Below are positions 47,174 to 55,610 of a stretch of DNA of 64,000 nt, in pieces. Source of the stretch: Flavobacterium psychrophilum (GTDB lineage Bacteria; Bacteroidota; Bacteroidia; Flavobacteriales; Flavobacteriaceae); contig CAMCFT010000020.1 of NCBI GenBank assembly GCA_945874225.1, positions 1-64,000 of the forward strand, written 5' to 3'. A program made the position numbers and the translations under genes. The notes beneath the pieces were generated by a model, which saw only the letters and a program-made list of their open reading frames with translations, did not search any database and was not told the origin of the DNA. Every line of letters starts with the position of its first letter. Within the stretch, counting starts at the first letter, position 1.

Positions 47174-47181
47174 TATATTTG
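47174..47181 (+). promoter_or_regulatory. Predicted -7 promoter element of the secreted 421-aa protein gene
   Basis: TATATTTG exactly matches TAnnTTTG. It overlaps the TTG that opens the longest ORF (47179), so translation more likely starts at the ATG at 47200. Confidence 0.6.
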
Positions 47182-47199
47182 ATATATAAAATCTTCAAA

Positions 47200-48465
47200 A
47201 TGGCTTCGAAAAAGGTATTCTTTATCATTCTAATTCTGATTTCTTTTTCAGCAAAAGCTTCTTTCATTTTGTTGCCAATGGATGAAACCACACAACAAAA
47301 CCATCTTAAAGCATATGGAATAACCTATTGGTGTATCGAAAAAAAATACAAAGCCAGTTGGTTGCTCAATTATCGTGGAGGTTCCTTTTTATTTCCCGAT
47401 GCTCCTGAAATTCGTAAAGAATGTCAAATTCGAGGCGTGAGTTTTGAAGTGTTGAGCGATACAGAAACCAATCAAATTCTCGAATTAATATCCAGTCCTT
47501 CCCAAAATATGGAAGCTGTTGTACTCGAAAAAGCACCTAAAGTTGCAGTCTATACACCTAAAGGCAAACAGCCTTGGGACGATGCCGTAACCCTTGTTTT
47601 GACTTATGCCGAAATCCCGTTTACGCCCATTTATGACGAAGAAGTTTTAAGCGACCAACTCATACTTTACGATTGGTTGCATTTGCATCACGAAGATTTT
47701 ACAGGACAATATGGAAAATTTTTTGGCTCCAACAGGAATTCACCTTGGTATATCGAACAAAAGAAAGAGGCCGAAGCTTTGGCAATAAAATTGGGTTACC
47801 AAAAAGTTTCAGAAGAAAAATTGGCTATAACCAAAAAAATCAGGGATTTCGTTATTGGTGGAGGATTTATGTTTGCCATGTGTTCTGCAACAGATAGTTT
47901 TGATATCGCTTTGTCTGCAGATGGAGTTGATATTTGCGAATCGATGTTTGATGGCGATGCAAGTGAGCCCAATTATCAGTCCAAAATAAATTATGCCAAT
48001 GCATTCGCATTTAAAGATTTTATTTTAGATAGAAAACCAGAACATTATGAATTCTCAAATATTGATATGACCGAAAAAAGAATGATGATTCCAATGGAGA
48101 GAGACTATTTTACCCTGATGGAATTTTCGGCAAAATGGGACCCAATTCCTTCTATGTTATGTCAAAATCACACCCAATTGATTAAAGGGTTTATGGGACA
48201 AACAACAGCTTTTGATCCAACGCTTATAAAATCAAATGTATTGATTATGGGAACTTGCGAACTCAATGGAGAAGCTCGTTACATTCACGGCGAAAAAGGC
48301 AAAGGAATGTATACTTTATATGGCGGACACGATCCGGAAGATTATCAGCATAGAGTAGGTGATCCGGTAACCGTTCTTGATTTACATCCCAATTCTCCGG
48401 GTTATCGTTTGATTTTGAACAATGTTTTATTTCCTGCAGCGAAAAAGAAAAAACAGAAAACTTAG
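47200..48465 (+). CDS. Secreted protein of unknown function (periplasmic)
   Basis: A 421-aa protein with a signal peptide (KKVFFIILILISFSAKASF). Motifs include LLPMDETTQQNHLKAYGITY, WLLNYRGGSFLFP, FVIGGGFMFAMCSATDSFDI and VLIMGTCELNGEARYIHGEK. I recall close Flavobacterium homologues being labelled asparagine synthetase B, but I see neither the N-terminal Cys2 glutaminase nor a SGGLDS PP-loop, so that name is not supported. Function unknown. The start at 47200 is preferred because of the promoter position. A bidirectional terminator separates it from the convergent dipeptidyl peptidase gene. Confidence 0.8.
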   Translation: MASKKVFFIILILISFSAKASFILLPMDETTQQNHLKAYGITYWCIEKKYKASWLLNYRGGSFLFPDAPEIRKECQIRGVSFEVLSDTETNQILELISSPSQNMEAVVLEKAPKVAVYTPKGKQPWDDAVTLVLTYAEIPFTPIYDEEVLSDQLILYDWLHLHHEDFTGQYGKFFGSNRNSPWYIEQKKEAEALAIKLGYQKVSEEKLAITKKIRDFVIGGGFMFAMCSATDSFDIALSADGVDICESMFDGDASEPNYQSKINYANAFAFKDFILDRKPEHYEFSNIDMTEKRMMIPMERDYFTLMEFSAKWDPIPSMLCQNHTQLIKGFMGQTTAFDPTLIKSNVLIMGTCELNGEARYIHGEKGKGMYTLYGGHDPEDYQHRVGDPVTVLDLHPNSPGYRLILNNVLFPAAKKKKQKT

Positions 48466-48536: not shown

Positions 48537-50669
48537 CTACTTATTATTTTCTATAACATAATTCAAAACCTTTGTCATTAAATGTACACGGTCTTTGCCT
48601 GTGACATTATGTTTGTGCATTGGGTAAGCAAAAAAGTCTACTTGTTTTTCAGCTTCAATAAACTTTTTGAGTAAGGCAAAATTGTTTTGCATTACGACGG
48701 TGTCATCGCTGGTTCCGTGAATTAAAAGCAATTTCCCCTTCAAATTATTTACGTAATTCAAGGTGCTGGATTCGTCAAAACCTTTTTGATTTTCGGCTGG
48801 TGTGTCCATATATCGTTCGCCGTACATCACTTCATAATATTTCCAATCGGTTACTGGTCCGCCGGCAACGCCCACTTTGAAAACATCTGGTTTTCGCAAC
48901 ATAATAGAGGTAGTCATAAATCCACCAAAACTCCAGCCGTGAATAGCCAAGCGATTTCCATCAACATATGGCAGGGATTTCAAATAATCAACGCCTTTCA
49001 TTTGGTCATCGATTTCGTTTACACCCAACCTTCCGTGTATCACGCTTTCGAACGCAAAACCACGATTGTCAGAACCGCGATTGTCAATAGTGAAAACTAA
49101 ATAACCTTGTTCCGCCATCCAATACATCCAAAGATTGGCACCATCTAAATAGGAATTGGTAATCATTTGAGCGTGTGGTCCACCATAAAGATAAACCAAA
49201 ACTGGATATTTTTTGGTTGGGTCAAAGTTGCTTGGTTTGATTAATCGGGTATACAAATCAGTTGTTCCGTCAGCTGATTTTATGGTATTGATATCGGCAG
49301 TTCCCATTTGATAATCAGCATATTTATTGTCGCTCACTAAGAGGGTCTTTGCCTTTAGTTTTTGGTTATACAGTAATGATTTTGATGGGGTTGAATGATT
49401 GGAATACTCATCAAAAAACCAATTCCCGTCTTTACTTATGGTTACAGTGTGTGTACCTTGGTCTTTGGTAATCAAAGTTTGTTTTCCTTTCAAATCCACT
49501 TTATAAACCAACATATTCGTTGGATTTTCACCAGTCGATTTGAAATAAATTTCTGTTCCTGCCGCATTACTTCCTATGATTTCTCTAACGGGAAATTTAT
49601 TATTAGTCAATTGTTTGATTAATTTTCCCTCAATGGTATAATAATACAAGTTATTGAAACCCTCTTTTTCACTTATCCAAACTAAATTGTTGGACTTGTT
49701 ACTTGGGAAAAAAGCATCGTGTTCTGGTTCTACCCATTTTTCGTTTTTCTCATTGAGAATAGTTCTCACAAAAGTTCCGGTTTGCGCATCATAAACATTC
49801 AGGGACATATCATTTTGACCTCGGTTTAGTTCAGCAATCAAAACATATTTTTCGTCTGGTGTCCAGGAAAGATTGGTTAAATAATCATCTTGATTTCCTC
49901 TTGGCGAAATGTAAACCGTTTTTTGGCTTGCCAGATTGTAAATTCCTACTCTTGGTTTTTCACTTTTTTGACCAATCATTGGGTATTTTATGCTGACTAA
50001 CTTCCCAGGAGTTTCAGTGATATCAAGCAAAGGATAATCAGCAACATCAGTTTGATCTTTTTGGTAGAAAGCTAAAAAGTTCGATTTTGGTGACCAAAAA
50101 ATTCCATTACTGATTCCAAATTCACTTCTGGCAAAAAATTCCCCAGAAACAATGGCTTCATTGGTTTCATTGGTAACAGTGATTTTTTCCTTGTTTTTAT
50201 TTAGAAAATACAAATTGTTTTTCTCAGTAAAAGCCAGGTTTTGTTTGGCGGAATCAAAAGTTTGGTTTTCTGCTGTTTTTGAAGTTTCCTGAATTTTTGT
50301 TCCGGATTTGGTAGCTAATGAATACTTGAAGAATTTTGTTCCTTCGGTTACTAAAATTGTGTTGGTATCAATCCATAGAATACCGGAAAGGGTTTTAAGA
50401 TTTGTGCTTAAAGATTTGTTGATTTCGTCCAATGTAAGCAAAGGTATGGTTTTGTTGTCGGTCGCGTTTGCGGACACCATTTTGGTCATCTTATCAGTAT
50501 AATACACATAATTATTAGTGTTTGGAATCCACTGAAAACCAGATAATTTATCGGATCTAAATCCTCGGTTTTGTTCTAAAACACCTTGTTCGAGAGTTAT
50601 TTTTTTGGTTTGACCAAAGGAGGAAATAGCAATAATGCAACTTAAGGCCAGAATAGAAATTTTGTTCAT
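48537..50669 (-). CDS. Dipeptidyl peptidase IV (S9 family)
   Basis: A 710-aa secreted serine exopeptidase that removes Xaa-Pro dipeptides. A signal peptide (ILALSCIIAISSFGQ) precedes an eight-bladed beta-propeller (about 40-450) and an alpha/beta-hydrolase domain. The catalytic serine is Ser580 in HGWSFGGFMTTS, the Asp is in IHGTSDDTVVMQ (about 655-656) and the His is about 687 in PMHKHNVTG. It probably works in the periplasm on peptides from protein breakdown. It sits 101 nt downstream of the cyanophycin synthetase gene on the same strand. Confidence 0.94.
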   Translation of the reverse strand: MNKISILALSCIIAISSFGQTKKITLEQGVLEQNRGFRSDKLSGFQWIPNTNNYVYYTDKMTKMVSANATDNKTIPLLTLDEINKSLSTNLKTLSGILWIDTNTILVTEGTKFFKYSLATKSGTKIQETSKTAENQTFDSAKQNLAFTEKNNLYFLNKNKEKITVTNETNEAIVSGEFFARSEFGISNGIFWSPKSNFLAFYQKDQTDVADYPLLDITETPGKLVSIKYPMIGQKSEKPRVGIYNLASQKTVYISPRGNQDDYLTNLSWTPDEKYVLIAELNRGQNDMSLNVYDAQTGTFVRTILNEKNEKWVEPEHDAFFPSNKSNNLVWISEKEGFNNLYYYTIEGKLIKQLTNNKFPVREIIGSNAAGTEIYFKSTGENPTNMLVYKVDLKGKQTLITKDQGTHTVTISKDGNWFFDEYSNHSTPSKSLLYNQKLKAKTLLVSDNKYADYQMGTADINTIKSADGTTDLYTRLIKPSNFDPTKKYPVLVYLYGGPHAQMITNSYLDGANLWMYWMAEQGYLVFTIDNRGSDNRGFAFESVIHGRLGVNEIDDQMKGVDYLKSLPYVDGNRLAIHGWSFGGFMTTSIMLRKPDVFKVGVAGGPVTDWKYYEVMYGERYMDTPAENQKGFDESSTLNYVNNLKGKLLLIHGTSDDTVVMQNNFALLKKFIEAEKQVDFFAYPMHKHNVTGKDRVHLMTKVLNYVIENNK

Positions 50670-50770
50670 AAAAGCAGATTTTTAAATGTGGGATAAAAGT
50701 ACAAAAAGGATGATAATTACAGACTTTTATCAATCTATAATTATCATCCTTTGGCATTATAAAAGGAAAA

Positions 50771-53395
50771 TTAGACTAAACCCTGCTCATTTTCTTTATC
50801 CAAATATTCCTGAACAATATCAATTGCATTGGTCACCACATCACTTAAAGCAGTAATAAAACTACCTTCTTCGGCACTATCAATGGCGTGTCTGATGGCT
50901 TCAGTTTCTTTTGGAATAATTTCATAAGTCACCGTTTTGCCTGAATTTTTAATTCCTTCCAGTATTAATTCAATGATTTCTTCTTCGGTTCTTCCTCTCA
51001 AATATTTTTCTTGTCGAATGATAATATGGTCAAACATTCTGGCGGCAATACTTGCACATTCTTTGATGTCTTCATCTCGGCGGTCTCCAACACCAGCGAT
51101 AATTCCAATTTTCTTCGTAGCTTCTACACTTTGTAAATACTCTTCAACACCTCTGTAACCGGAAGCATTGTGTGCAAAATCAATTAAAACCTTGAATTTT
51201 TTGAACTCGAAAATGTTCATTCGACCTGGAGTTTGCGCTGCACTTGGAATAAATGTTTGTAAGGATAAGCTAATATCTTCAGTTTTGAAACCCCATAAAT
51301 AACTGGCTAAAGTTGCTGCAAGAACGTTGGCAATCATAAATTTTGCTTTACCACCAAGAGTTAACGGAACGTGGGTGGCACGTTCGATTCGGATTTTCCA
51401 TTCGCCTTTTTTGATGGTAATATATCCGTTTTCATAAACGGCAACTGTTTTTCCTTCGGCGCATAATTTTTTAATTAACGGATTTTCTTCAGTCAAACTA
51501 AAATAGGCAACATTACAACTTAGTTCGGAGCCAATTTTTATACATTGTTCATCGTCAGCATTTAAAATTGCCCATCCGTCTTTTTTAATACTTTTTACCA
51601 CGGTACTTTTTACTCGAGCCAAATCATCAAGGGTGTGAATGTCGCTTATTCCCAAATGGTCTTCTTGAATATTCGTTATTATACCTATGTCACATCGGCT
51701 GAAGCCAAGACCAGAGCGCAAAATTCCACCACGAGCAGTTTCTAAAACAGCAAATTCTACGGTTGGATCTCTCAAAACATATTCGGCACTTATGGGACCA
51801 GTAGTATCTCCTTTTTCCATCATATGGTTTTGAATATAAATCCCATCTGATGTGGTGAAGCCTACTTTATAACCATTATTTTTTACAATATGAGCTAGAA
51901 GTCGGGTAGTGGTTGTTTTTCCATTGGTACCCGTAACCGCAATAATTGGAATGCGACAGGTTTTTCCGGGAGGATAAAGCATATCAATAACGGGAGCAGC
52001 CACATTTCTTGGCAATCCTTCAGAAGGAGCAAGGTGCATCCTGAAACCCGGAGCGGCATTGACTTCGAGAATCACACCTCCATTTTCTTTTAGTGGTTGC
52101 GTTAAGTTTTCGGCCATTATATCCACACCACAAATATCTAATCCGATGACTCTTGAAATTCTTTCTGCAAGAAATATATTTTCTGGGTGCATCATATCAG
52201 TGATATCAACAGAAGTTCCGCCAGTACTTAAATTGGCTGTCGATTTGAGATAAACTATTTCCCCATTTTTTGGAATAGTTTCCAAGGTGTAATTTAATTT
52301 ATCTAATAAATCTTCGGTATCTCGATCAACATCTATTTGAGTCAATACATTTTCGTGACCATAACCACGTCTAGGATCAAGATTTGTTTTGTCTATCAAT
52401 TCTCGAATAGTATTTAGGTCATCACCCACAACATGAGCAGGAACACGTTTTGCTGCTGCAACAAGTTTGTTGTCAATCACTAATATTCTGAAATCGAAAC
52501 CGGTAATGAATTTTTCTACTATAATACGATGGCTGTATTTTTTGGCGAAAGCCAAACCTGAAACTGCATCTTCCCAATTTGTTACATTAATAGATGCTCC
52601 TTTTCCGTGGTTCCCATCCAATGGTTTCAAGACTATAGGATAGCCAATTTTTTCTATAGTTTCAGCCAAATCTTCTTCATCAACACAAATACTTCCATTG
52701 GCAACAGGAATCGAGGCCATATCAAGCATTTTTTTGGTAAGTTCTTTGTTGCACGCCATATCTACGGCAATGCTGCTGGTTTTACAAGTTATGGTTGCTT
52801 GAAAACGCATTTGATTTACTCCATAACCCAGTTGTACTAAGGAATTAGTTCCCAATCGTATCCAAGGAATGTCTCTGTTTACAGCTTCTTCGACGATGCT
52901 TCCGGTGCTTGGTCCAAGACGAACACGTTCCCGAATTTCACGCATTTTTTGTAAATCGGTATCCAAATCATAAGGAACTCCTTTTATTAATGCTTCGGCA
53001 ATGGCAACTGCACTTTCGGCAGCAAAAAGTCCAACATTTTCTTCGGTATAACTAAAAACTACATTGTAGATTCCAGGAGTTTTGGTTTCTCTTGTTCTTC
53101 CAAAACCCGTATCCATTCCGGCCAATGTTTGGATTTCAAGGGCAATATGCTCAATTACATGACCCATCCATGTTCCTTTTTCTAATCGCATAAAAAATCC
53201 CCCTCGACAACCTTCTGAGCAGCGATGCTCAATCATTGTTGGGAACATAGCTTCTAATCTTTCTTTAAATCCATCTATTTTATTAGTAGGAAATTGTTCC
53301 ATTTCCTCCAAATCCAAACGCATTTGGATTAATTTTTTTCTTTGTATGCTCCAAATATTTGGACCACGAAGTGCTTGTATTTTTAATATTTTCAT
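50771..53395 (-). CDS. cphA: Cyanophycin synthetase CphA
   Basis: Polymerises Asp and Arg into multi-L-arginyl-poly-L-aspartate with two ATP-dependent active sites. At 874 aa it is full-length CphA1-like. An N-terminal domain (about 1-160) holds HVIEH at 79-83. The ATP-grasp domain, which adds Asp, includes YPIVLKPLDGNHGKGASINV and GGVILEVNAAPGFRMHLAPS. The Mur-ligase-like domain, which adds Arg, has PIIAVTGTNGKTTTTRLLAH, LETARGGILRSGLGF and LIDFAHNASGYRGVEEYL. Both sites look intact, unlike CphA2. It is divergent from cyanophycinase across 251 nt. Confidence 0.95.
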   Translation of the reverse strand: MKILKIQALRGPNIWSIQRKKLIQMRLDLEEMEQFPTNKIDGFKERLEAMFPTMIEHRCSEGCRGGFFMRLEKGTWMGHVIEHIALEIQTLAGMDTGFGRTRETKTPGIYNVVFSYTEENVGLFAAESAVAIAEALIKGVPYDLDTDLQKMREIRERVRLGPSTGSIVEEAVNRDIPWIRLGTNSLVQLGYGVNQMRFQATITCKTSSIAVDMACNKELTKKMLDMASIPVANGSICVDEEDLAETIEKIGYPIVLKPLDGNHGKGASINVTNWEDAVSGLAFAKKYSHRIIVEKFITGFDFRILVIDNKLVAAAKRVPAHVVGDDLNTIRELIDKTNLDPRRGYGHENVLTQIDVDRDTEDLLDKLNYTLETIPKNGEIVYLKSTANLSTGGTSVDITDMMHPENIFLAERISRVIGLDICGVDIMAENLTQPLKENGGVILEVNAAPGFRMHLAPSEGLPRNVAAPVIDMLYPPGKTCRIPIIAVTGTNGKTTTTRLLAHIVKNNGYKVGFTTSDGIYIQNHMMEKGDTTGPISAEYVLRDPTVEFAVLETARGGILRSGLGFSRCDIGIITNIQEDHLGISDIHTLDDLARVKSTVVKSIKKDGWAILNADDEQCIKIGSELSCNVAYFSLTEENPLIKKLCAEGKTVAVYENGYITIKKGEWKIRIERATHVPLTLGGKAKFMIANVLAATLASYLWGFKTEDISLSLQTFIPSAAQTPGRMNIFEFKKFKVLIDFAHNASGYRGVEEYLQSVEATKKIGIIAGVGDRRDEDIKECASIAARMFDHIIIRQEKYLRGRTEEEIIELILEGIKNSGKTVTYEIIPKETEAIRHAIDSAEEGSFITALSDVVTNAIDIVQEYLDKENEQGLV

Positions 53396-53646
53396 AAAAC
53401 AGAAAGTTTAGTAATAGGATAATGAATTGACAGCAATGTTGTTAAATATTCATTTTGAAAATTTCAATAAAGATGTTTGGGTTTTTTATCAAAAAAAAAA
53501 TGAATATAATTCAACTAAGTTAGATTTTTAAAGTTTGTTATCAAAATTTATCGGGTTTATAATTATGAACTTTCATTGGTTATAAATTATTGGAAAAAAA
53601 TCAAGACTTCAATTGCTCCCTTTATGTTTTTAGTTATTTTTACCAA

Positions 53647-54519
53647 ATGAACATACTTGGAAAACTAATAATAATAGGTGGTGCGGTAGACAAAGGTAGT
53701 TTTACTGAAACTGATTTTGATAAAAGTGCTGCTAAGAACTTGAATTTTTTTGAAACTGGAATTTTAAAAAGGATTATAGACGAGTCAAAACACAAAGAAC
53801 TATCTCGAATTGAAGTAGTTACGACAGCCTCTAAAATCCCGAAAGAGATTGGTCCTGAATACGTTAAAGCATTAAGTTATTTGGGTGCAAATAATGTTGA
53901 TATTTTAGATATTGTTAGAAGGGAAGAGGCTACAGATCCAGAAGTTTTAGAACGATTAAAAGCTGCTGATGTGGTTATGTTTACCGGTGGCGATCAATTG
54001 CGACTGACTTCTATTCTTGGCGGAACTCCTTTTCATGATATTCTTTTGGAAAAATACAGGAATGAGGATTTTATTTACGCTGGAACTTCGGCAGGAGCTG
54101 CTGCGGCTTCCAATAATATGATTTATCAAGGTAGCAGTTCAGAAGCATTATTGAAAGGTGAAGTGAAAATCACCAGCGGTTTAGGTTTGATTGACGATGT
54201 AGTTATTGATACACATTTTGTACAGCGAGGCAGAATCGGAAGATTATTTCAGGCAGTTGTTGGTAATCCAAAAGTGCTGGGAATAGGACTTGGAGAAGAT
54301 ACTGGTTTGCTGATTACTAATGGACGACAAATGGAAGCCATAGGTTCCGGACTGGTTATTCTTGTTGATGGTCGCGAGATTAAAGACACGAATTTAACCC
54401 AAGTTGAGTTGGGACAACCCATATCGATTTCACATTTAATTACACATGTTATGAGCAAACATGACACTTTCAATTTGGATACTTATAAAATGACAATTCA
54501 ATCTTCACAATACGTTTAA
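53647..54519 (+). CDS. cphB: Cyanophycinase
   Basis: Cleaves cyanophycin to beta-Asp-Arg dipeptides; an S51-family serine exopeptidase. The 290-aa protein shows GKLIIIGGAVDKGSF, VVMFTGGDQLRL, the nucleophile Ser148 in YAGTSAGAAAASNNMI, and His190 in VVIDTHFVQRGRIGRL. It has no signal peptide, as expected for the intracellular CphB form. The ATG at 53647 is preferred over an in-frame TTG 19 codons upstream because it starts directly at the conserved MNILGKLIIIGG. It is divergent from cphA and 77 nt before the isoaspartyl dipeptidase gene. Confidence 0.95.
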   Translation: MNILGKLIIIGGAVDKGSFTETDFDKSAAKNLNFFETGILKRIIDESKHKELSRIEVVTTASKIPKEIGPEYVKALSYLGANNVDILDIVRREEATDPEVLERLKAADVVMFTGGDQLRLTSILGGTPFHDILLEKYRNEDFIYAGTSAGAAAASNNMIYQGSSSEALLKGEVKITSGLGLIDDVVIDTHFVQRGRIGRLFQAVVGNPKVLGIGLGEDTGLLITNGRQMEAIGSGLVILVDGREIKDTNLTQVELGQPISISHLITHVMSKHDTFNLDTYKMTIQSSQYV

Positions 54520-54563
54520 ATCAGATGGCAGTTTTCAGTTTTCATACGGCAGTTCCTGCCTGA

Positions 54564-54591
54564 AATCTGCAACCTGCAATCTGCAATCTGC
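54564..54591. repeat. Four tandem 7-bp units before the isoaspartyl peptidase start
   Basis: aatctgc, aacctgc, aatctgc, aatctgc in a row, ending 5 nt before the ATG at 54597. Related CAGT-rich sequence precedes it (54527-54560). Confidence 0.8.
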
Positions 54592-54596
54592 AAATT

Positions 54597-55439
54597 ATGA
54601 AACTAATTATCCACGGTGGTTTTTTCTCGGAATCATCTACTAATCAAGAGACAAAAGTAGCGAAGCAACAATCTTTAGAAAGAATTGTAAAAGATTCTTA
54701 TGAATTTTTAAAAACACATTCGGCTATAGAAACGGTAGTTTTTGCAGTTTCCCTTTTAGAGGACGATGAATTGTTTAATGCTGGCATTGGTTCCCAAATT
54801 CAAAGTGATGGAAAAATCAGAATGAGTGCGGCTTTGATGGATGGTTCTACCCAAAAAATGAGTGGAGTTATCAATATTGAAGAAGTGAAAAACCCCATTC
54901 AGGTAGCTGAAGTCTTATTGAATTATGATGACAGAGTTCTAGGTGGAAGTGGTGCAACCAACTTTGCCAGACAAAATGGTTTCGAAAAATTCTCAACAGA
55001 AATCCCACAACGCAGAGCCGAATATGAAGCAAAACTCAAGGCTTCAGGTACGGGAACTGTGGGTTGTGTAGCTTTGGACAAAAATGGAAAACTGGCAGTT
55101 GCCACATCAACAGGAGGGAAAGGTTTTGAAATTCCGGGAAGAATATCTGACTCGGCCACAGTTGCAGGAAATTATGCTAACGAATTTTGTGGTGTGAGTT
55201 TGACTGGCGTTGGTGAGGATATTGTGAGTAATGCTACTGCGGCTAAGATCGTAACCCGTGTTACCGATGGTTTTTCATTACAAGAGGCTTTTGCCAAAAC
55301 TTTTAATGAACTAAAGCCTTATGATGGTTTTGCAGGGGCCATTGCTATTGATGATAAAGGAAATGTATTTCATCAGGATTCACATCCGAGTATGGTTTTT
55401 GCGAGTTTTGATGGGGTAAATTTCGAGGTTTTTCAATAA
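54597..55439 (+). CDS. iaaA: Isoaspartyl peptidase/L-asparaginase
   Basis: An Ntn-hydrolase of 280 aa that hydrolyses beta-aspartyl dipeptides. The autocleavage site is in GTGTVGCVALD, making Thr154 the nucleophile of the beta subunit. NAGIGSQIQSDGKIRMSAAL and VLGGSGATNFA are typical of the alpha part, and STGGKGFEIPGRISDSATVA of the beta part. Next to cyanophycinase, its likely job is to split beta-Asp-Arg to aspartate and arginine, completing cyanophycin use. Plant-type asparaginase activity is also possible. Confidence 0.93.
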   Translation: MKLIIHGGFFSESSTNQETKVAKQQSLERIVKDSYEFLKTHSAIETVVFAVSLLEDDELFNAGIGSQIQSDGKIRMSAALMDGSTQKMSGVINIEEVKNPIQVAEVLLNYDDRVLGGSGATNFARQNGFEKFSTEIPQRRAEYEAKLKASGTGTVGCVALDKNGKLAVATSTGGKGFEIPGRISDSATVAGNYANEFCGVSLTGVGEDIVSNATAAKIVTRVTDGFSLQEAFAKTFNELKPYDGFAGAIAIDDKGNVFHQDSHPSMVFASFDGVNFEVFQ

Positions 55440-55586: not shown

Positions 55587-55610
55587 AACCCTCATTTAGG
55601 GTTGTTTTTT
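55587..55610. terminator. Bidirectional terminator
   Basis: aaccct (55587-55592) pairs with agggtt (55598-55603); a T run follows on the plus side and an A run precedes it. It would end the minus-strand lipoprotein gene and perhaps the cyanophycinase operon. Confidence 0.7.

Follow-up and report, generated by a model that had tools for sequence, protein, structure and literature searches.

The 64,000-nucleotide (nt) stretch of DNA analysed here (the window) comprises positions 1 to 64,000 of contig CAMCFT010000020.1 from the Flavobacterium psychrophilum assembly GCA_945874225.1, and it carries a locus for the synthesis and breakdown of cyanophycin, a polymer of aspartate and arginine that serves to store nitrogen. 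Our analyses have identified three adjacent genes in this locus, viz. cphA on the minus strand, followed by the divergently oriented cphB and iaaA on the plus strand; at the scores found, chance is not an issue for their identification. The third gene, iaaA, encodes an isoaspartyl peptidase of a short form whose relation to cyanophycin is the main subject of this work. The features of the locus are as follows:

50705..50752, minus strand: hairpin with a T-rich tail just 3' of cphA, a probable terminator from its RNA fold (20-pair stem, G-U allowed)
50771..53395, minus strand: cphA, cyanophycin synthetase 1, 874 amino acids (aa), with an N domain, an ATP-grasp G domain and a Mur-ligase-like M domain (TIGR02068, 7lg5, active-site residues)
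53147..53221, minus strand: N-domain motif Cx19HxxEH, a primer-making metallopeptidase-like site, CphA residues 59-83 (meaning from PMC9262961)
53396..53646, no strand: divergent spacer between cphA and cphB, 251 nt, holding ATCAAAATTTAT
53647..54519, plus strand: cphB, intracellular-type cyanophycinase, 290 aa (TIGR02069, 7uqv; Ser148, His190, Glu217)
54597..55439, plus strand: iaaA, isoaspartyl peptidase of the short, cyanophycin-linked form, 280 aa (PF01112; predicted nucleophile Thr154)
55119..55130, plus strand: gate motif KGFE, IaaA residues 175-178 (MTNK at 200-203 of EcIaaA)
55587..55603, no strand: terminator-like hairpin 3' of iaaA, T-rich on both strands; weak, with 6 such sites in the region versus 4.0 expected

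The initial annotation of this DNA had placed the three genes at these coordinates and named Ser148, His190 and Thr154 as catalytic residues, all of which is correct. For comparison, we have used 395 genomes from the phylum Bacteroidota and 199 from the genus Flavobacterium (the genus of F. ranwuense, the genome holding locus L001), both being even samples of the larger groups, and gene order was read in the best 80 of 265 relatives.

The protein encoded by cphA scores 1269.5 bits against TIGR02068 (cut-off 850) in a full-length match covering residues 2–864, and it aligns with the solved CphA1 structure 7lg5 across residues 1–862 (E 2.1e-299). The residues from the literature (PMC9427784 and PMC9262961) that were checked in its G domain (K220, K261, H267, R309, R323, N394, S396, E450, G456, and R458) and M domain (D585 and H586) are all present at the mapped positions, the sole exception being the position of Glu215 in TeCphA1, which is conservatively changed to Asp212 in the window protein; the mapped site 448, itself chosen by guess, is Ile. 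The N-domain motif Cx19HxxEH, which marks CphA enzymes that initiate the polymer without added primer (PMC9262961), is intact (C59, H79, E82, and H83). With this motif and the G- and M-domain residues in place, the window CphA is expected from its sequence to be a working, primer-independent synthetase. Some of the sampled genomes contain a second, more distant CphA with 49–65% identity (loci L155 and L156 in G148 and G074, and genomes G407, G453, G003, G468, and G582), which in G453 and G582 is adjoined by its own more distant cphB. At loci L192–L195 and L197 (G102, G346, G248, G362, and G237), a CphA of ~45% identity occurs together with a separate Mur-ligase-like open reading frame (ORF) that matches only CphA ~473–850 and lies ≤3 kb from CphA in four genomes, whereas G362 has it on a different contig; IadA adjoins a cyanophycinase gene in 5/5 of these genomes.

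The cyanophycinase CphB scores 230.2 bits against TIGR02069 (cut-off 126.6) and matches 7uqv with an E value of 6.9e-52. Ser148, His190, and Glu217 are present at the mapped positions, and we take Glu217 to complete the Ser/His/Glu triad of the enzyme; no signal peptide is seen by inspection. The start of cphB at TTG 53590 given by the mechanical ORF was rejected, as the upstream frame contains stops in 5/7 relatives compared, and the start is therefore most likely ATG 53647, which agrees with the 251-nt gap between cphA and cphB given in the initial annotation. The further suggestion made there, that synthesis and breakdown are oppositely regulated from this gap, found no support here. A scan of the gap for a simple Flavobacterium promoter pattern found none, and a pattern of the same type in 59 cphA-cphB gaps gave 7 occurrences towards cphB and 1 towards cphA where 2.9 were expected by shuffling, with no clear enrichment; a sigma-70 scan of the region is not informative for this phylum. 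Opposite regulation of cphA and cphB-iaaA is at present a guess. A 12-nt element, ATCAAAATTTAT, was found in 22/59 gaps (≤1 mismatch), chiefly those of close relatives, where shuffled sequences gave 1.1; since 17 of the same gaps had been used to choose the motif, this contrast is biased upwards. The element may be regulatory or may merely be shared by descent.

The iaaA gene follows cphB after a spacer of 77 nt. Its product scores 265.1 bits against PF01112 (cut-off 27), and its Thr154, which is preceded by Gly, aligns with Thr179, the nucleophile of the Escherichia coli enzyme EcIaaA. All of the 85 short-form sequences retain Thr179, Thr197, Arg207, Asp210, Ser211, Thr230, and Gly231 (EcIaaA numbering), seven residues that are listed as catalytic or as binding the Asp part of the substrate (PMC10206079). 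A clear difference from the canonical enzymes is found at positions 200–203, which are KGFE in 85/85 short-form sequences and MTNK in the canonical IaaAs (29/30 at each of the first three sites and 30/30 at the last), Lys200 and Glu203 both being present in 0/30 canonical sequences. Met200 has been described as an active-site gate, and natural orthologs with Lys200, including those of Myroides and Pedobacter, are reported in the same paper (PMC10204187), in whose text the word cyanophycin does not occur. The short form is further characterized by Asp at position 118 (2/30 canonical sequences), Val at 232, and FF at 12–13.

In a phylogenetic tree of 63 rows, the short-form sequences form one clade (support 100/99, stem 3.41) facing 30 canonical IaaAs including EcIaaA (canonical side 93/92), and membership of the third gene among the canonical IaaAs was therefore rejected. 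Assignment as a glycosylasparaginase was likewise rejected, the four glycosylasparaginase-like PF01112 rows (a label that is inferred) being placed on a separate branch (100/99). The AlphaFold model of the 280-aa protein (mean pLDDT 77.6) confirms the expected fold, with 2zak as the best Foldseek match (TM-score 0.86). By its sequence, the third gene belongs to a clade of its own that is linked to cyanophycin, and it is no standard IaaA, a distinction that the initial annotation had missed. The cphB-iaaA spacer contains, at 54560–54593, a tandem CTGCAAnCTGCAA repeat, which is possibly a dispersed repeat element (4 matches in the window at ≤1 mismatch, all of them there, versus 0.28 expected).

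The distribution of the short form within the genus Flavobacterium closely follows that of cphA. Based upon E values of ≤1e-150 for cphA, ≤1e-60 for both iaaA and cphB, and ≤1e-200 for the S9-family peptidase encoded next to cphA, these genes were called in 74, 69, 73, and 49 of the 199 genomes, respectively. The short-form iaaA is present in 69/74 genomes with cphA and in 0/125 without it, and cphB in 72/74 and 1/125. In three of the five cphA genomes lacking iaaA (G433, G529, and G586), cphA/cphB lies, by coordinates, at a contig edge where iaaA would follow; the other two (G510 and G552, assemblies of 1.7 and 1.9 Mb) have no such explanation. The iaaA gene is found within 500 nt of cphB in 69/69 genomes, whereas cphA and cphB are ≤1 kb apart in 58/72, the remainder being on different contigs or >1 Mb away. 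Hence, the cphB-iaaA pair stays together even where cphA has moved.

To allow for kinship, a DnaB tree was made from the window plus 100 genomes of the 199-genome sample, taken from among the DnaB matches listed (53 cphA-positive and 47 cphA-negative, the latter chosen mainly by high DnaB score). On this tree cphA needs 15 changes, and the nearest relatives of the window on it differ, the locus being present in G540 and G443 and absent from G459, G402, and G561. Across 13 supported independent pairs differing in cphA, iaaA changes along with cphA in a mean of 12.5 and in the opposite direction in 0 (median p 0.00024).

Within the 395 Bacteroidota genomes, CphA was called at ≥45% identity over most of the query (weaker or partial matches of ≤34% identity being excluded), Flavobacterium-type CphA at ≥67% identity, and the short form at ≥64% identity to the window protein, which excludes a 39% match in G162. 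CphA is present in 46/395 genomes, split in two in G177, and all 46 carry a TIGR02069 cyanophycinase over the cut-off. A PF01112 gene over the cut-off is likewise found in 46/46, with glycosylasparaginase-like paralogs counted in; in G362 a paralog of this kind is the sole PF01112 gene, and IadA is present as well. An IaaA gene lies ~5 kb or less from cphA in 34/46 genomes, in the short form in 22/23 genomes with Flavobacterium-type CphA and in the canonical form in 12 of the other 23, where the canonical iaaA is convergent with cphB in the cases inspected. The short form itself is found in 26/395 genomes, viz. all 23 with Flavobacterium-type CphA and three others (G007, G012, and G022). IadA as the enzyme of such loci was rejected, TIGR01975 being over the cut-off in 0/23 genomes with Flavobacterium-type CphA and in 6/49 genomes in all.

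These observations bear on a gap that has been named in the literature. In a 2023 survey of 86 CphA1-bearing Bacteroidota, cyanophycinase was reported in 100% and IadA or IaaA in 22.1% (PMC10206079, Sharon and Schmeing), and the isoaspartyl dipeptidase of Bacteroidota was concluded to be still undiscovered. The candidates put forward there were the S9 family peptidase of a neighbouring gene, an M14-type peptidase, which is said to explain the alpha- and gamma-Proteobacteria, and an esterase-like gene. In our sample, an IaaA or IadA gene is found within ~5 kb of cphA or of any cyanophycinase gene in 43/46 CphA genomes (exceptions G051, G132, and G298); the sample and methods differ from those of the survey, so that the percentages are not directly comparable. 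On our count, the Bacteroidota gap looks to be largely one of detection, and the survey may have missed the short form, which is ~36% identical to EcIaaA.

The family scores, the active sites and the comparative evidence of three genes acting together bear out the complete gene set for synthesis, depolymerisation, and dipeptide hydrolysis described in the initial annotation. We consider it highly probable that the three genes provide for a closed cyanophycin cycle inside the cell, with the short-form IaaA as its cyanophycin-linked beta-Asp-Arg dipeptidase, the specificity being a prediction. In such a cycle, CphA would make the polymer from aspartate, arginine, and ATP, as expected from its family, and could start without added primer by means of the intact N-domain site; CphB, again judging from its family, would cut the polymer backbone to beta-Asp-Arg dipeptides; and the short-form IaaA, which as an Ntn hydrolase is predicted to undergo autoproteolysis before Thr154, would then hydrolyse beta-Asp-Arg to Asp and Arg, the changed gate being predicted to tune it to the arginine side. 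The data establish the identity of the genes and their co-inheritance; that polymer is formed and dipeptides are hydrolysed in the F. psychrophilum of the window is inferred from the enzyme families. A function of the short form in cyanophycin use, and not in dealing with isoaspartyl damage in general, is suggested by its lockstep presence and absence with cphA and by the gate residues specific to its clade.

An alternative is that the third gene encodes a promiscuous isoaspartyl peptidase/L-asparaginase for the clean-up of protein damage and the use of Asn, with beta-Asp-Arg as one substrate among many. This explanation overlaps with a cyanophycin-linked function, since one enzyme could carry out the last step of cyanophycin breakdown and yet stay promiscuous. 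The closest named relatives are annotated as isoaspartyl peptidase/L-asparaginase or asparaginase, all of the residues binding the Asp part are conserved in the short form, and the assayed enzymes of other cyanophycin clusters, viz. LmIadA and RhIaaA, are promiscuous and show no preference for beta-Asp-Arg (PMC10206079). However, a housekeeping enzyme should persist without cyanophycin, whereas the short form is missing from 125/125 cphA-less Flavobacterium genomes; it also tracks cphA in independent contrasts, and its gate is unlike those of all 30 canonical sequences. We regard promiscuity as possible rather than probable. The two query lists in the methods of PMC10206079, for IaaA and for IadA, seem to have been swapped, WP_022952024.1 being listed under IaaA and cloned as LmIadA, and WP_037265155.1 being listed under IadA and cloned as RhIaaA.

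Several other points weigh against a dedicated beta-Asp-Arg dipeptidase in a closed cycle. The behaviour of LmIadA and RhIaaA means that specificity cannot be deduced from clustering alone, and the co-inheritance could reflect transfer and loss of a single block, cphB and iaaA being neighbours wherever both were called. The third-gene protein misses the cut-off of PRK10226, the NCBIfam beta-aspartyl-peptidase equivalog (130.8 versus 567 bits), as do two canonical IaaAs of cyanophycin loci (346.8 and 344.8 bits). PF01112 proteins of type AIII are reported in 83% of Flavobacteriaceae species (PMC9500103); such genes being common in the family, the lockstep with cphA holds for the short form alone. 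Region 173–189 of the AlphaFold model, which includes the gate, has pLDDT <50, and hence no contact in the pocket can be named. The window CphA has Asp212 at the Glu215 position, on which most of the activity of TeCphA1 depends (PMC9427784). No published assay of the third-gene protein or of the short-form clade was found.

The S9-family peptidase gene (48537–50669) provides another candidate for the dipeptidase of the locus, with iaaA having some other task. It adjoins cphA on the same strand in the window, an S9 family peptidase gene adjoining a cphA1-cyanophycinase cluster is a named candidate in PMC10206079, and in Flavobacterium the gene is present in 42/74 genomes with cphA versus 7/125 without. 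Once kinship is allowed for, however, the link is not significant: across the 13 pairs it differs in the same way as cphA in 4.3 (median p 0.125). Among the best 80 of 265 relatives, 68 have enough sequence there to show it, and in 14 of these the gene is found immediately downstream of cphA. In the window it is separated from cphA by a strong hairpin (50705–50752; fold z -9.14, with 0/200 shuffles as good), which is a probable terminator. The peptidase also has an N-terminal signal peptide by inspection, and it is thus probably exported, away from intracellular dipeptides. Based upon the kinship contrasts, the hairpin, and the adjacency counts, this candidate was rejected, and we consider it extremely improbable. 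Beyond it, at 47179–48465 on the plus strand, is a gene for a 428-aa protein, exported by inspection, which has no match in Pfam, NCBIfam, or PHROGs and which many of the 80 loci carry close to cphA and dnaB; a PHROGs search of two unnamed neighbour proteins gave no match.

The short form also occurs in three genomes without full-length CphA, all of which carry a cyanophycinase over the cut-off. In G007 it adjoins a cyanophycinase (159.1 bits), which by inspection has a signal peptide, and a transporter and a regulator of the RpiR type are close by; in G012 its surroundings include a DcuC-type transporter, an epimerase-like gene of the enolase superfamily, and an M14 peptidase, the cyanophycinase being ~17 kb away; and in G022 it is near a transporter and regulator similar to those of G007, with the cyanophycinase on another contig. 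Only resemblance underlies the name RpiR and, for G007 and G022, the type assigned to the transporter. These loci (L211, L212, and L213) look like cyanophycin-scavenging loci, and they raise the question whether the window locus is one too, with cphB and iaaA digesting cyanobacterial cyanophycin and cphA making little of it or another polymer. Besides these three genomes, in two of which the genes lie near others of scavenging type, the isolation of Flavobacterium TH167 from cyanobacterial aggregates (PMC5887021) would fit such a role. However, cyanophycin granules were seen in this same strain by electron microscopy, the window has a full-length CphA with intact sites, its CphB lacks a signal peptide, and no transporter gene directly adjoins the locus. 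Scavenging is thus a very improbable explanation for the window locus, and a closed intracellular cycle remains our preferred reading.

Cyanophycin in flavobacteria, described as little studied in the initial annotation, is already in print in part (PMC9723704, PMC5887021), and that statement is to this extent out of date. In addition to the granules of TH167, the CphA of F. psychrophilum is reported to be co-expressed with metalloproteases, and cyanophycin synthesis from released peptides has been suggested (PMC9723704); cphA has been recorded in a Flavobacteriales genus of activated sludge (PMC10687191), and genes for cyanophycin synthase, cyanophycinase, and isoaspartyl aminopeptidase in Dyadobacter (PMC11573002). 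Hence, the locus as such is already known, and its new element is the third gene, the short-form iaaA, which is a strong candidate for the dipeptidase listed as undiscovered in Bacteroidota; no paper settling the identity of that enzyme was found in the open-licence PMC literature. A named gap in cyanophycin metabolism thus now has a concrete candidate. If the short form is specific, it would represent a cyanophycin-specific dipeptidase that evolved independently of the M14-type enzyme, and a natural experiment in the specialisation of a promiscuous Ntn hydrolase.

The window locus and its third gene may be compared with four known systems. The CphA1-cyanophycinase-IaaA clusters described in PMC10206079 have the same three enzyme steps, with adjacent cphA and cyanophycinase genes and a clustered Ntn isoaspartyl peptidase, but the flavobacterial third gene falls into a short-form clade of its own, in which the gate is changed. 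The cyanophycin utilization locus of Ben Hania et al. (cited through PMC10206079) resembles the window in combining a cyanophycinase with an isoaspartyl dipeptidase, and a setting similar to it is that of the short-form iaaA clade in L211 and L212; it has a transporter and no CphA, whereas in the window CphA is present and no transporter adjoins. The M14-type cyanophycin dipeptide hydrolase found in alpha- and gamma-Proteobacteria (per PMC10206079) shares with the short form a proposed role as the dedicated last step of breakdown; the two belong to unrelated families, one being an M14-type peptidase and the other an Ntn hydrolase. With EcIaaA/EcAIII of E. coli (2zak and 2zal) the short form shares the Ntn fold and the seven catalytic and Asp-binding residues; it differs in having 36% identity over the aligned positions, a length of 280 versus 321 aa, a shorter linker before the nucleophile, and KGFE for MTNK, D for P118, and V for T232.

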